Part shown: positions 5,861 to 64,000 of the stretch, piece by piece
Layout: every line of letters starts with the position of its first letter
Position numbering within the stretch: position 1 is the first letter of the stretch
Origin: Methanomicrobiales archaeon HGW-Methanomicrobiales-3
GTDB lineage: Archaea > Halobacteriota > Methanomicrobia > Methanomicrobiales > Methanospirillaceae
Assembly: GCA_002839605.1 (NCBI GenBank)
Contig: PGYK01000007.1
Coordinates: forward strand, 62,001-126,000
Direction: 5' to 3'
Length of the DNA stretch: 64,000 nt
Notes under the pieces: generated by a model
Told to the model about the DNA's origin: nothing
The model's database searches: none
The model's input: only the letters and a program-made list of their open reading frames with translations
Translations under genes and position numbers: made by a program

Positions 5861-6778
5861 ATGCGGCAAGAAAAAGTCCAAAACAAGGACGTCAAGGCAA
5901 AAATCCGAAAAGGAACCCGTCACGCCAATGTGAGCCATACCCCTCTGGAAACCCCCGATCTCGATCCTTTCATCAACCGGCTGATCTGTGGAGATTCACA
6001 GCAGGTTCTCTCCCGCATGCCGGACCAGAGTATTGATCTTATCATCACATCCCCTCCTTATAATTTCGGCCATTCCTATGCACAGGACCCGCATGATGAT
6101 ACTCATGAATGGAATGAGTATTTCGCCACACTCCAATCTGTCTGGAAGGAGTGTGACAGGGTCCTGAAACCCGGTGGCAGAATTGCGGTAAATGTCCAGC
6201 CGCTCTTCTCGGATTATGTTCCCACCCACCACATCATATCACGGCAACTGGCATCCCTCGGGCTCCTCTGGAAAGCAGAGTTCCTGTGGGAGAAGAACAA
6301 TTACAATGCAAAATATACCGCATGGGGAAGCTGGAAATCCCCCTCAATGCCTTATATCAAATATACCTGGGAATTCATCGAGGTGTTCGACAAGACCTCG
6401 CACAAGAAGACCGGAAAGCGGGAAAATATCGATATTACCGCGGAAGAATTTAAGGAATGGGTCATGGGAAAGTGGTCATTTCCCCCGGAAACGAGGATGA
6501 AAGATTATGATCACCCCGCAATGTTTCCTGAGGAACTGCCACGGCGGGTAATGAAACTCTTCTCGTACAAAGACGATATCATTTTAGATCCATTTAACGG
6601 GGCCGGGACAACGACACTTGTCGCGTTTAAACACGGGCGCCGGTTCATCGGGATCGACAACTCCCAAAAATATTGTGAAACTGCGCTTGAACGGCTTAAC
6701 AAATGTAATCTCAACGGGAAGTGTGGGGGTCATTACCCGGAACCCTCATTGCTACACTTTGATCCAATCGAAAAATGA
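5861..6778 (+). CDS. Site-specific DNA methyltransferase, beta-class (N4-cytosine or N6-adenine), solitary
   Basis: This 305-residue amino-methyltransferase has catalytic motif IV TSPPYN at residues 63-68 and the SAM-binding motif I DPFNGAGTTT at about 243-252, in the order IV then I that defines the beta class. The sequence GRRFIGIDNSQKYCETALERL after motif I is the usual motif II/III region. The SPPY form is most common among N4-cytosine enzymes, but N6-adenine enzymes of this group exist. No restriction endonuclease or specificity gene lies beside it: upstream is divergent sufC and downstream is a convergent transglutaminase-like gene. It is therefore an orphan methylase. The recognition sequence cannot be read. 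Confidence 0.93.
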   Translation: MRQEKVQNKDVKAKIRKGTRHANVSHTPLETPDLDPFINRLICGDSQQVLSRMPDQSIDLIITSPPYNFGHSYAQDPHDDTHEWNEYFATLQSVWKECDRVLKPGGRIAVNVQPLFSDYVPTHHIISRQLASLGLLWKAEFLWEKNNYNAKYTAWGSWKSPSMPYIKYTWEFIEVFDKTSHKKTGKRENIDITAEEFKEWVMGKWSFPPETRMKDYDHPAMFPEELPRRVMKLFSYKDDIILDPFNGAGTTTLVAFKHGRRFIGIDNSQKYCETALERLNKCNLNGKCGGHYPEPSLLHFDPIEK

Positions 6779-58753: not shown

Positions 58754-60523
58754 ATGGAAAGACGGTATCTTTTGGGAAATGAAGCGATCGCCCACGCCTG
58801 TCTTGAGGCGGGCGTTGATTTCGTATGCGGGTATCCGGGAACACCCTCGTCCGAAGTGATCGATACGCTGCGGACGCAGCCTGACCGCTCGTATTACCTC
58901 GAATGGTCGGTGAACGAGAAGGTGGCGCTCGAGAACGCGCTTGCTGCCGCATGGTGTGGGGTCCGCGCACTCTGTACCATGAAACATGTGGGGCTCAATG
59001 TTGCTGCCGATCCACTGATGACGAGCGCCTATACGGGGGTGACCGGGGGCCTGGTCATCATGAGTGCCGACGATCCGTTCGCCCACAGTTCCCAGAATGA
59101 ACAGGATACCCGGTGTTATGCCCACTTCGCGCGGGTGCCCTGTTTTGACCCCGCCAGCGTGCAGGAAGCGCATGACATGATCCCTAAGGCGTTCGCCCTC
59201 TCCGAGGAGTTCGGGCTCCCTGTTCTCTTCCGGCCCACAACCCGCATCTGCCATTCCAAGGGCGATGTCGAACTGGGCGAAATCGTCAAAAGCTCCCGCA
59301 GGGGGGATTTCCATAAAGATCCGCGGCAGTACGTGGTCATCCCTGCCCATACCCGCATCCTGCACCGGAAACTCAACGAGAAACAGCCTGCACTGAAGAA
59401 ACGTCTCGTGGAACTCGGGTTCAACCGGTACGAGATCCGCGGGAAGACTGCAATCATTGCAAGCGGGATTGGCGCTTCGTATGTCGAGGAGCTACTGCCT
59501 GCGGGGATTTCGTTCATGAAGATCGCTGCTTATCCTATCGATGAGGACTGGCTGGCGGAATTTGTGCAGAAGCACGATAAAGTGCTCGTCATCGAGGAGC
59601 TTGCTCCTGAAGTGGAAGAGATTGTCCGGCAGGTTGCCGGAAATGTTCCGGTTTTCGGGAAGAAGAACGGCTATGCCCCGTACGAGGGAGAACTCTCGCC
59701 TTCCGCTGTTGCTGCGATCATGGAGAAGGCGGGGTTCCCCGTCAAAACCCCGCTCTCTGCCAACCCGCCCGTGCCGGATGTCCCCGCCCGCCCCCCGATT
59801 CTCTGCGCCGGATGCCTGCACCGCAGTGCCTTCTACGCCATAAAGAAGGTGTACAAGGATGCTGTCTACCCAAGCGACATCGGGTGTTACACCCTCGGGC
59901 TCCAGCTTGGGGCAGTTGACACGACCATCTGCATGGGCGCGTCGATAACTGTTGCAAGCGGTATCGCCCATTCCGGCGAACCGCGCGATGTGATCTGCAC
60001 CATCGGGGACTCCACGTTCCTCCACACCGGTATCCAGGGGCTCCTGAACGCGGTGTATAATGGTGCGAACATGACCGTGGTCATCCTTGACAACCGCATC
60101 ACCGCGATGACCGGCCACCAGCCGAACCCGAACACCGGTGCAAACGCCTGCGGTGTTGAAAGTCCGCCCGTCTCTCTGGATGCGATCTGCCGCGCATGCG
60201 GGGCATCGTTTGTGGAGACGATCGACCCGTATGATGTGACGGGAATGGTCAACCTCCTGCAGGAAGCAAAGAAGCGGAGTGGTGTGAAGGTGATCATTGC
60301 CAAACAGATGTGCGTGATCATGGCCCGGCGCAGCGGGGTCCGGCGCGGGAAATACCGGGTGGATACTGAGGCCTGCACCGGCTGCGGCACCTGTGTGCGG
60401 TTCGGTTGTCCGGCGATCGAGTTCGTGGATGAGAAGGCCCGGATCAACGAACTCTGCAATGGCTGTGCGGTCTGTGCCGATCTCTGTCCTTTCGGGGCAA
60501 TCGTGCGGGAGGGGAAGAAATGA
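58754..60523 (+). CDS. iorA: Indolepyruvate:ferredoxin oxidoreductase, subunit alpha
   Basis: IorA is the large catalytic subunit that oxidises aryl pyruvates with CoA, using thiamine diphosphate. The N-terminal pyrimidine-binding domain includes GYPGTPSSEVIDTL, the ThDP domain has CAGCLHRSAFYAIKK and GDSTFLHTGIQGLLNAV with DNRITAMTGHQPNP, and the C-terminal ferredoxin part has CTGCGTCVRFGCPAIEF and CNGCAVCADLCPFGAI. 589 residues is typical. It may run in the biosynthetic direction in methanogens. It overlaps iorB by 4 bases. Confidence 0.97.
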   Translation: MERRYLLGNEAIAHACLEAGVDFVCGYPGTPSSEVIDTLRTQPDRSYYLEWSVNEKVALENALAAAWCGVRALCTMKHVGLNVAADPLMTSAYTGVTGGLVIMSADDPFAHSSQNEQDTRCYAHFARVPCFDPASVQEAHDMIPKAFALSEEFGLPVLFRPTTRICHSKGDVELGEIVKSSRRGDFHKDPRQYVVIPAHTRILHRKLNEKQPALKKRLVELGFNRYEIRGKTAIIASGIGASYVEELLPAGISFMKIAAYPIDEDWLAEFVQKHDKVLVIEELAPEVEEIVRQVAGNVPVFGKKNGYAPYEGELSPSAVAAIMEKAGFPVKTPLSANPPVPDVPARPPILCAGCLHRSAFYAIKKVYKDAVYPSDIGCYTLGLQLGAVDTTICMGASITVASGIAHSGEPRDVICTIGDSTFLHTGIQGLLNAVYNGANMTVVILDNRITAMTGHQPNPNTGANACGVESPPVSLDAICRACGASFVETIDPYDVTGMVNLLQEAKKRSGVKVIIAKQMCVIMARRSGVRRGKYRVDTEACTGCGTCVRFGCPAIEFVDEKARINELCNGCAVCADLCPFGAIVREGKK

Positions 60524-61104
60524 GCGAAAGTTTCGATATCCTGATCGTGGGGATCGGGGGGCAGGGGACGATCCTCGCCTCAAACATCCTTGGCGAAGCC
60601 TGCCTGATCGAGAACCGGCATGTCCGGGGAGCAGAAACCCACGGGATGGCCCAGCGCGGCGGGTCAGTCGAGAGCCATATCCGGGTTGGGGGCGAGCACG
60701 GCCCGCTCATTCCGCCGGGCCAGGCAGACCTCCTCATATCGTTCGACCTTCTCGAAGCGCTCCGGTACTCGCACTACCTGAAGCAGGGTGGGAAGATGGT
60801 GGTTAACCGTCGCATGGTCCTCCCCACGTCGGTCTTTACGCAGAAAGTTGCACTGCCATCGGAAGAGGCTATCATCGCGGCACTCGGGAAGTATCATCTC
60901 TGCCTGCTGGATGCCGATACGATGGCAACCGAAGCAGGAAGCCCGCTCTCCCAGAATGTGGTGATGCTGGGAGCAGCTGCCGGTGCCATGCCGCTCAAAC
61001 CCGAATCCCTCCTTGAGGCGGTGAAGCGCCTTGTCCCGAAGAAGACGGTGGAGATCAATGCCAGGGCGTTTGAGGCTGGGCGGGCATTCGGCGGGCAGTG
61101 TTGA
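60520..61104 (+). CDS. iorB: Indolepyruvate:ferredoxin oxidoreductase, subunit beta
   Basis: IorB is the gamma-type domain of 194 residues. It opens with FDILIVGIGGQGTILASNIL and has RGAETHGMAQRGGSVESHIR, the two hallmark segments. It forms a heterotetramer with IorA. Last gene before the AT-rich right end of the window. Confidence 0.97.
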   Translation: MSESFDILIVGIGGQGTILASNILGEACLIENRHVRGAETHGMAQRGGSVESHIRVGGEHGPLIPPGQADLLISFDLLEALRYSHYLKQGGKMVVNRRMVLPTSVFTQKVALPSEEAIIAALGKYHLCLLDADTMATEAGSPLSQNVVMLGAAAGAMPLKPESLLEAVKRLVPKKTVEINARAFEAGRAFGGQC

Positions 61105-61133
61105 TGATACTTATGATTCTTTAATAAAATGCA

Positions 61134-61149
61134 TTTTTCTTTCTCTTTT
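61134..61149 (+). terminator. T-rich terminator after iorAB
   Basis: TTTTTCTTTCTCTTTT begins about 30 bases after the iorB stop, marking the end of the conserved block and the junction with AT-rich DNA. Confidence 0.5.
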
Positions 61150-61278
61150 GATTATCTTTAATTCCCTCAAAAATGTGTTATTTTTAAATTTTGTTCTTAA
61201 AAATCGGTTATTTCTTAATCCAAAATCTCTCTAATGCAAAATATGACTTATTAGAGAAAGTTTTATGATTACCTAATG

Positions 61279-61297
61279 CCTATTAATTTTTAATAGG
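61279..61297. promoter_or_regulatory. Inverted repeat upstream of the island's first gene
   Basis: CCTATTAA and TTAATAGG are perfect inverted repeats around TTT. The site lies 7 bases before the ATG at 61305. It is well placed as an operator or 5' leader hairpin for the small-protein/ATPase pair. Confidence 0.65.
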
Positions 61298-61304
61298 TAG
61301 TCAC

Positions 61305-61538
61305 ATGGTAAAACCAAAAGTCGAAAGCGAAACAAAAAATGCAAAATTTAAACGAATTGCTTCTGCGCGGACTACTCGCATTTTGGAAGATCTTCGTTTA
61401 CTTGGAAATTGTGCTAATACGAGCCATTACAGTTACACTGAAAGTGATGCTTTGAAAATTTTTGCTGCTATTGAAAAAGAGATGAAACGAACAAAATCTC
61501 TGTTTAACAAGCCGAAAACTGAATTTTCACTGGATTGA
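61305..61538 (+). CDS. Small conserved protein of a putative defence island
   Basis: A 77-residue basic protein: FKRIASARTTRILEDLRLLG, then NCANTSHYSYTESDALKIFA and AIEKEMKRTKSLF. From memory such short proteins, with the pattern LRLLGN.. YxYTxxD..KIFxAIEKE, are found in bacterial clusters next to DNA methyltransferases and GHKL ATPases, but I cannot verify this here. The gene is AT-rich with codon use unlike the genes before it, and lies 65 bp before the ATPase gene. Its function is not known. Confidence 0.75.
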   Translation: MVKPKVESETKNAKFKRIASARTTRILEDLRLLGNCANTSHYSYTESDALKIFAAIEKEMKRTKSLFNKPKTEFSLD

Positions 61539-61603
61539 GCGCTATGTTTGATTATTCAGCTAAGACTCCCGCAATAAATCAGATCAATTAAGTTGGTGAA
61601 TAT

Positions 61604-64000
61604 ATGTTGCATACAAATATCGAACTTTCACAGGTAATCTCTCTACAAACTGAGCAAGATGTTGATGATTTCATTCATTCAATTGATGTCGCAGATGTAG
61701 CTGAATATCCCGTGAACCATAAGTTTGTATGGCGTTTATTGAATGATAGCGTTAGTAATGCTGCGAATATTCATACGACTTCTGTGACGATTGCTCCAAT
61801 AATTGAGCGGATAACAAATGGATTTGATGCGGTCATTCAGGATAAAGAATATCAGAAAAATAACGGTAAACCACTAGATCACAATAAACTACCTACATCC
61901 CCACGAGAAGCCGCGAAAGAGTGGTTCAACATTCCCGGTGGTGATACCGCCATTTATGGTGCAGGAATGAAGGACTCGGCAAGATCCAAAATGGCCGATG
62001 AAATTGTCACTGTTGAACTATTATCATCAGAAAACCCACGGAATCCCACCGTTGTAATTTCAGATCATGGTATTGGTCAATCTCCAGATGATTTTGATCA
62101 AACACTGATGAGTCTCGGGAGAAGTAACAAATTTAGTTCCCCCCATCTTCATGGGACTTATGGACATGGGGGTTCATCATCATACCGATATTGTAAGTAT
62201 TCTGTAATAATTTCGAGACGGAATCCAAAAACTCTGCATGGAAAAGAAGACGAAATTGGATGGACGATTGTTAGACGGGAAGAAGGATTTTCAGTATATG
62301 ATTTTAAAGGCAAAAGAACTGTTGAAATTGTTCAGCCCCCAGTATATCTGTATCTATGTTTAGCTAATGGCTCGATTCCAAAAATTCCGCTAATTGATAA
62401 TGAATTCGAAAAAGGAACGCGCATCGCTCATATAAAATACGACGCAAAAGAATGGGAGAATCTCTCTCGCGGCCTAGGATATCGACTCTTTAGGAATTAT
62501 TTATTTGATCCGGTACTACCGTTTCGCTTGATAGATCGAAGAAAAACCGATTCGAAGACAAAACCGTCTTTCGAACGGAATATGTTTGGAGATCGTTCCA
62601 CTCTTGAAACAGCGGATTATGTTGTTTATAAAAATCAAGCTGAAGAAGAATGGCCAAATGGGGGCAAACTAATCGTTAGATATTGGCTTCTTCATAAATT
62701 TGCATCACCTGAGGACCGGCCACTTAAAAATCACTTAGAACGAGAAAATTCTCAGAATACGATAATTGCAACGTTAAATGGGCAGAGACACGGAAGTTTT
62801 GAAAAACGATTGATAGCAAAAAAGTGTCGTTTGCCTCGAGTAAGTGATTGCCTTTTAGTACAAGTGGTGCTCGATCAATTACCCCGGGAAGTAAAGGGGA
62901 AAATTTTCACATCAACAAGAATGAGCCTTGTTAAAGAGGGTACTGAAATAGAATTACTTGAAAAAAAGTTAATCGAATGTTTCACCGAAGATGAACGACT
63001 CAAAGAATGGGAGACCAAACTTAGTGATTTGAGATCTGAAGATGATGATAGCATCAAAGCTGTCAATAAACTTCTTACGCAGTTAATTGAAGTTGGTCAA
63101 AATATAGGAATTGGCGGTCTTCAGCAAAAACAAAATATTGCAGGTACTGGAACAACGAATGAATTCTCGCCCCAGGATCCACCTACGATTTTTAAGATAA
63201 AAAGTATTGGTGATCCATTAGAGTTCATAAAAAACGAGACAAAGACATTTAATATTGAATTAAATGGCCCAAATTCATTATTCACGAGGCCAAAAAATCG
63301 TGGAGTTGTAAAATGCATCTTACCTGACGATCCGGGAATCGAAGTTTCTATCCAATATGAAAAGTTTTCCGACGGCAAACTTCCTGTCAAAGTGTTTTGC
63401 AAATCTGATGCAACTGAATATGATGTGAAAGAAATAAAATTTATTTTTGCAATTGATAGTCTACTCTATGATTTTGTTGATAAACGAAAGTATCTCATAA
63501 TTCCGCCATTAAAATACATTCCCAAAGATCCACCAACTACCCTCTCTATATTGAAAAATTCCCCGATAAAAATTAAAATTGGCAAAAATAACGCCATTCC
63601 AATCGGATTTGATGGTCCTGATGATATTTTAGTACGAACCACCAATCCTGCATATTTTTCTGCATCGTTTAATAATCATGAATCAGTTCGGCTGATTCGG
63701 AGATTAGGACCTGCAAGCGGTCGAATTCAGATAACAATTAATCCGGATTCGACTGCAAAAGAAGGAGATACTTTTGAACTGTCGGTTTCCTTAACTCTTT
63801 CTGATGGAACGAGACTATCTGATAAAAAAACATGTGAATTTGTCTTCGAAAAAGAAATTGAAAAAACTGGACATGGCGGCATAATTGAATCTTCAAAGCC
63901 AAACTTTTCGATTAAAGGTATTCATCAGAGTGATTGGGCAGTCTTGGGCTGGGATAAATTTAATGTTGGAACTCACGAATTAAAATCAGATTCTGATAAA
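61604..64000 (+). CDS. Large GHKL-type ATPase (MORC/MutL/Hsp90-like), truncated at the window edge
   Basis: The frame is open from ATG 61604 (ribosome site GGTGA seven bases upstream) to base 64000: 799 codons with no stop. The GHKL fold is clear: N-box ERITNGFDA (E68, N72, D75), G1 box SDHGIGQ (D154-G158) and G2 box GTYGHGG (G184-G190). A likely transducer domain follows to about residue 400, then an acidic/coiled-coil part near 450-500. The last 250 residues have a beta-rich look. It is AT-rich and unlike its neighbours in composition. MORC-like ATPases in prokaryotes occur in restriction-modification and phage-defence clusters; I infer such a role. Confidence 0.85.
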   Translation, partial: MLHTNIELSQVISLQTEQDVDDFIHSIDVADVAEYPVNHKFVWRLLNDSVSNAANIHTTSVTIAPIIERITNGFDAVIQDKEYQKNNGKPLDHNKLPTSPREAAKEWFNIPGGDTAIYGAGMKDSARSKMADEIVTVELLSSENPRNPTVVISDHGIGQSPDDFDQTLMSLGRSNKFSSPHLHGTYGHGGSSSYRYCKYSVIISRRNPKTLHGKEDEIGWTIVRREEGFSVYDFKGKRTVEIVQPPVYLYLCLANGSIPKIPLIDNEFEKGTRIAHIKYDAKEWENLSRGLGYRLFRNYLFDPVLPFRLIDRRKTDSKTKPSFERNMFGDRSTLETADYVVYKNQAEEEWPNGGKLIVRYWLLHKFASPEDRPLKNHLERENSQNTIIATLNGQRHGSFEKRLIAKKCRLPRVSDCLLVQVVLDQLPREVKGKIFTSTRMSLVKEGTEIELLEKKLIECFTEDERLKEWETKLSDLRSEDDDSIKAVNKLLTQLIEVGQNIGIGGLQQKQNIAGTGTTNEFSPQDPPTIFKIKSIGDPLEFIKNETKTFNIELNGPNSLFTRPKNRGVVKCILPDDPGIEVSIQYEKFSDGKLPVKVFCKSDATEYDVKEIKFIFAIDSLLYDFVDKRKYLIIPPLKYIPKDPPTTLSILKNSPIKIKIGKNNAIPIGFDGPDDILVRTTNPAYFSASFNNHESVRLIRRLGPASGRIQITINPDSTAKEGDTFELSVSLTLSDGTRLSDKKTCEFVFEKEIEKTGHGGIIESSKPNFSIKGIHQSDWAVLGWDKFNVGTHELKSDSDK

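Follow-up and report, generated by a model that had tools for sequence, protein, structure and literature searches.

A small acquired island in a Methanomicrobiales archaeon joins a GHKL ATPase and a 77-residue protein to a DNA methyltransferase: a candidate modification-linked defence module

To what kind of system does a GHKL ATPase belong that follows a 77-residue basic protein (p77) at the end of a 64,000-nucleotide stretch of archaeal DNA (the window; G000:C1:62001-126000 of a 2.59-Mb genome)? A sequence-only reading of the window had placed an island edge at about 61105 and predicted that a DNA methylase, a Z1-type helicase, a PD-(D/E)XK nuclease and AIPR proteins would lie past 64000. 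We read a further 35 kb of the contig. Both genes and the switch in composition were found again: GC drops from ~0.61 to ~0.36 near 61105, and is back to ~0.56-0.64 after a methyltransferase gene. The AT-rich island is ~4.2 kb long and contains three genes, p77, the ATPase (which ends at G000:C1:126315, 315 bases beyond the window, and thus spans 61604-64315 in window numbering) and the methyltransferase, which is convergent with the ATPase across a gap of 20 bp. The methylase is present as predicted; the helicase, the nuclease and AIPR are missing, because the island stops after the methylase and tRNA-Ser, truB and hemD come next. With only p77, the ATPase and the methylase in the island, the predicted system type was abandoned. 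The features are summarized in Table 1.

Table 1. Features of the island and its flanks, in window numbering unless a contig position is given.
Feature	Position	Strand	Remarks and basis
iorB (POR-family oxidoreductase subunit)	60520..61104	+	left flank; Pfam POR 5e-44
left island boundary, AT-rich leader	61105..61304	.	GC 0.61 to 0.36
p77 (77-aa basic protein, predicted two-helix hairpin)	61305..61538	+	homologues, model, GHKL co-localisation
GHKL ATPase, N-terminal 799/903 aa in window	61604..64000	+	Pfam, family alignment, motifs
N6/N4 DNA methyltransferase, 334 aa	G000:C1:126336-127340, beyond window	-	Pfam, PADLOC
tRNA-Ser(gga), right flank	G000:C1:127958-128044, beyond window	-	ARAGORN
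truB, hemD	right flank after tRNA-Ser(gga), beyond window		TruB: Pfam

The island is an insertion between iorB and tRNA-Ser/truB, which are near neighbours in congeners, and this bears out the proposed island edge. The distance from iorB to tRNA-Ser is 4.85 kb here versus ~0.2-1.4 kb in nine congeners. iorB was matched in 39/39 congeners searched, mostly at >70% identity, and the immediate left flank is IorA/IorB according to Pfam. Eleven congeners were inspected over a flank of at most 1.5 kb; tRNA-Ser(gga) was present in nine, in most of them followed by truB, and in L122 and L126 the tRNA was not reached within the flank inspected. The island is small and horizontally acquired. No integrase ORF was recognised in it, and classical integrase/att insertion at tRNA-Ser was rejected, as the left boundary also shows no directly repeated copy of the tRNA 3' end. 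G-rich hairpins beside tRNA-Ser were rejected as a module component: some congeners have them at this site too, so they are probably a feature of the flank. G-rich inverted repeats (GGGGGTA..CCCCC) border the module here (L002 6424-6909, past the window end) and at an unrelated site in the congener G067 (L015 7430-7785). They are absent from the 64-kb window, occur near iorB in some congeners that have no module, and possibly mark a preferred insertion neighbourhood. The 5' end of tRNA-Ser is covered by a perfect 27-bp tandem duplication (L002 7029-7082). Another N6_N4 DNA methylase is located inside the window at 6032-6688 (+; G000:C1:68032-68688), in the part that the sequence-only reading had described as housekeeping throughout.

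The ATPase has 903 residues, with the motifs E68-x3-N72-x2-D75, D154HGIG158 and G184TYGHGG190 intact and a Pfam match to HATPase_c_3 of 25.9 bits (cut-off 25). In an alignment of 28 intact family members, the residues E68, N72, D75, D154, G156, G158, K176, G184, G189, G271, G393, Q394 and R439 are invariant, and the four GHKL ATP-binding motifs (E68/N72/D75, D154-G158, G184-G190, G271) are conserved. Beyond the ATPase domain, D/E311, R313, H396, R439 and D/E440 are the only charged columns kept in at least 24 of the 28; the C-terminal part of the alignment is without a conserved acidic cluster, and neither Pfam nor PADLOC detects a nuclease domain. No PADLOC or NCBIfam model matches the protein, the PDC-M33A/B/C profiles included. 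In a PDB sequence search, the ATPase profile had weak matches to MORC4 and topoisomerase VI-B, confined to the ATPase core, and an AlphaFold2 model calculated from five sequences had a pLDDT of 35, too low to support a clamp architecture.

The earlier reading had called this protein MORC/MutL-type. The GHKL ATPase and its association with DNA modification are borne out; however, the MORC-specific S5 motif GhXhhpXXRhl (as defined in PMC2292703) is present in 0/28 sequences between residues 250 and 550, and because of its absence from all 28 relatives the ATPase is, judged by sequence, not a MORC proper. The ExxxH that paraMORC2 carries in the S5 domain is missing from the island ATPase and not conserved across the 28 members, nor is the C-terminal HxH of paraMORC5. 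The C-terminal RE-fold nuclease (E-D-ExK) of paraMORC3/VcSduA has no counterpart among Pfam or PADLOC domains or conserved C-terminal acidic residues, and Pfam finds no paraMORC4 TIR domain in the 903 residues or in the island neighbours. Membership in paraMORC1, which has a distinct conserved C-terminal extension, is possible.

Homologues of the ATPase occur in 4 of 108 genomes of the family and in 5 of 393 of the phylum, and this sporadic occurrence excludes an HtpG-like chaperone with conserved synteny. A profile search detected homologues in 18 of 391 genomes of a haloarchaeal class, and others are located on plasmids of several bacterial phyla and on viral contigs; a search of phages with the island ATPase sequence gave no match. 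The closest homologue, at 73% identity, is from the congener G067. It resides at a different site (the ATPase is on contig C22, iorB on C10), its p77 and ATPase contain one in-frame TAA each, and no methylase was found in the 19-kb stretch. In G283 and G464 the copies are split or truncated, and a methylase was likewise not detected. These cases suggest that decay goes with loss of the methylase, but in G527 and G301 a methylase is present although the copies are split.

A DNA-modification gene is located near the ATPase in 24 of the 28 intact members examined. The partner is an N6/N4 methylase in eight, a C5 methylase in six, a type IIG-like enzyme in three, Dam in one, and a set of phosphorothioation genes (Ssp/Dnd/Pbe) in six; partner methylases of different classes are mutually unrelated. 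The island methyltransferase matches Pfam N6_N4_Mtase (6e-37) and PADLOC MTase_II PDLC03296 (2e-144). Ssp genes adjoin the ATPase in Ensifer, Devosia and Hymenobacter (including SspC), and PbeA/C/D and DndA are beside it in haloarchaea. Fifteen of 20 archaeal loci have a PF01555/PF00145 methylase at most 3 kb from the ATPase, where 0.23 would be expected from the density of such methylases (73 merged places over the 67.7 Mb of the 19 archaeal genomes with these loci). The binomial P of ~1e-25 takes the loci as independent and overstates the evidence, because archaeal loci are related. The ATPase tree requires 13 or more switches of partner type, and the adjacency therefore arose repeatedly; the modification enzyme is exchangeable across the ATPase family. 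The five archaeal loci without such a methylase comprise three with IIG-like enzymes and two beside pbe-type genes (pbeA, pbeC, pbeD and dndA confirmed by profile in one, the matching gene order recognised by sequence in the other).

The strength of the partnership is uneven. L012 has a DndB-like neighbour only, the IIG enzyme of L014 is ~2 kb off, and the partner in L065 is several kb away inside a Druantia-like island. The intact members from Haladaptatus, Pontibacillus and G215 have no modification gene in view. In L013, from a genome of the same family, a methylase 63% identical to that of the island adjoins a 243-aa gene of no assigned identity and is 2 kb from another ATPase of the family, itself flanked by a Dam methylase; a search of plasmids for close relatives of the methylase found none. 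In some haloarchaeal loci (L036 7445-8218; L070; L074), the GHKL gene is separated from the C5 methylase by an HhH-GPD base-excision glycosylase.

Plasmids, archaea and viral contigs encode homologues of the small protein p77 (77 aa, pI 9.7) that are ~30-50% identical to it; its ORF is therefore not due to chance. Conserved positions include F15, R22, N35, N38, Y42, Y44 and F67. No Pfam, NCBIfam or PADLOC model matches it, and matches to PHROGs are marginal only. AlphaFold2 predicts a two-helix hairpin (helices 11-35 and 46-68, pLDDT 85); a fold search with this model found no PDB match and insignificant viral matches. Of 17 p77 copies on plasmids or chromosomes, 13 are directly followed by a GHKL-type gene, as are five copies on viral contigs (18 distinct loci). 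The linked ATPases represent at least three divergent GHKL families and probably a fourth: that of the island; PDC-M33A (PADLOC E down to 3e-126); a group from Dinoroseobacter, Agrobacterium and Rhizobium with weak HATPase matches; and probably Ensifer L079, GHKL-like by motif only. The island family and PDC-M33A are related over the GHKL domain only (hhalign E 4e-4, probability 34%), and in profile comparison the third group has no detectable relation to either. If the defence reading is right, further systems of this kind could be sought through the p77 family. In L013, L014, L023, L060 and L073, a protein of 340-400 aa that falls outside all Pfam families replaces p77 directly before the ATPase; by eye, its start may resemble a ribbon-helix-helix.

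Many viral contigs contain p77 without a GHKL gene. In the viral contigs or phage records L093, L096, L099, L100 and L087, p77 domains have no adjoining GHKL gene, and some are fused into larger proteins or are beside a C5 methylase. On the viral contigs L105 (4986-7462) and L106, near-identical copies of p77 and the ATPase are beside terminase- and portal-like genes; for this phage-borne ATPase, a C5 methylase is present on one of the two contigs only (L106), several kb away.

Modification genes of unrelated chemistry, the island setting and the intact ATPase motifs lead us to a modification-linked defence module. We consider it moderately probable that the island is restriction-modification-like, with a GHKL effector, p77 as cofactor and an exchangeable enzyme that sets the mark. 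In this compact, mobile three-gene module, the methyltransferase would mark host DNA, and the ATPase with its small cofactor would act on DNA without the mark. An ATP-gated dimeric clamp like those of MORC/MutL might close on or loop unmarked DNA, and either block its replication or expression or pass it to a host nuclease; this mechanism appears likeliest, given the lack of a conserved nuclease site and of neighbouring helicase or nuclease genes here. As in restriction-modification, a modification enzyme is linked to the putative effector, which would also have to act on unmodified DNA. Against the defence module, a nuclease-free effector of a restriction-like kind is unusual, three members are without a modification gene in view, the phage-borne copy has its C5 methylase at a distance and on one contig only, and the links in L012, L014 and L065 are loose.

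Should the GHKL protein instead be a true restriction enzyme, its beta-rich C-terminus would hide an unrecognised nuclease that cuts unmethylated DNA, as in VcSduA-like GHKL-nuclease fusions. The ATPase gene is indeed opposite a methylase, and VcSduA is a working fusion (PMC12137116); however, the scarcity of conserved charged columns past the ATPase domain, the lack of a C-terminal acidic cluster and the failure of Pfam and PADLOC to detect a nuclease make this distinctly unlikely. We also regard as unlikely a guard or type IV-like role, in which the ATPase and p77 sense modified DNA or the loss of host marking and respond with growth arrest, not with restriction of incoming DNA. The linkage of p77 and ATPase is tight, like that of toxin-cofactor pairs, tailed phages carry p77 homologues without a GHKL gene that are possible decoys, and the ATPase has decayed where the methylase is gone, whereas Pfam and PADLOC find no known toxin domain and several partners are complete modification systems that a simple guard would not need.

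The ATPase could also be no defence effector at all and instead assist or regulate modification enzymes in an Hsp90-like manner (in assembly, loading or epigenetic control). This would accommodate its co-localisation with modification enzymes of every chemistry, the chaperones among GHKL proteins and the lack of a nuclease, but methylases and phosphorothioation proteins have no common architecture, so that it is difficult to imagine a client shared by both, and the sporadic distribution and island location suit defence better; we judge it improbable. That independent genes came together by chance in a defence hot spot is very improbable: L013, L065 and L010 are clearly mixed islands, yet the methylase adjacency far exceeds the background density, and two- or three-gene islands like the present one hold little else.

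Beyond the single defence module, we tentatively propose, as a possible but doubtful generalisation, a class of immune modules whose effector consists of a GHKL clamp without a nuclease and the widely shared p77, and in which one self-mark (m6A/m4C, m5C or phosphorothioate) can be exchanged for another. In this class, p77 would pair generally with defensive GHKL ATPases that otherwise have no relation to one another, and the p77 homologues of phages would be decoys. If this is true, a single ATPase family senses that a DNA mark is missing even though the marks differ widely, with a readout independent of mark chemistry, and self is discriminated from non-self without a dedicated nuclease. Eukaryotic MORC relatives silence DNA, and for MORC-type proteins there would be a minimal model in prokaryotes, with a partner that can be tested. 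In the open-access literature we found no description of the ATPase family, its phosphorothioation link, or p77.

Several known systems share parts of this arrangement. In the PADLOC candidate PDC-M33, the A component is a GHKL ATPase located after a p77-family protein, often near a C5 methylase and Vsr; however, the ATPases are related in the GHKL domain only, M33B and M33C are without counterpart in the island, and p77 is shared by linkage only. VcSduA (paraMORC3 Shedu; PMC12137116) is an anti-phage protein that also has a GHKL ATPase domain, but it carries its own DUF4263 PD-(D/E)XK nuclease and acts alone, whereas the island has a modification partner and no nuclease. The HEF_HK/Response_reg_2 pairs (PMC8011034) include a restriction-modification-linked GHKL protein near methylases, with a C-terminal histidine-kinase ATPase and thus a different architecture. 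The Ensifer and Devosia loci of the family ATPase probably hold such a pair too: in L009 (7171-11546) and L011 (12446-16948), a sensor-kinase-like GHKL protein (HATPase_c and HATPase_c_3) and a partner protein, probably this pair, are next to Ssp genes and the family ATPase. Ssp/Dnd/Pbe phosphorothioation defence provides the modification module beside the ATPase in six relatives, whereas the island enzyme is a methylase; the Pbe effector proteins described in PMC6459918 do not include GHKL. The prokaryotic MORC and paraMORC1-5 proteins (PMC2292703) have an N-terminal GHKL ATPase, a downstream alpha/beta region and a C-terminal extension as well, and are likewise mobile, sporadic and found with DNA methylases. 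They differ from the island family in the S5, ExxxH and HxH motifs and in the RE-fold of paraMORC3 and the TIR domain of paraMORC4, and phosphorothioation partners are not mentioned by Iyer et al. 2008. Because no nuclease site is conserved, the family fits the DNA looping that these authors proposed for MORC/paraMORC proteins of R-M operons (PMC2292703) better than it fits a cutting enzyme.
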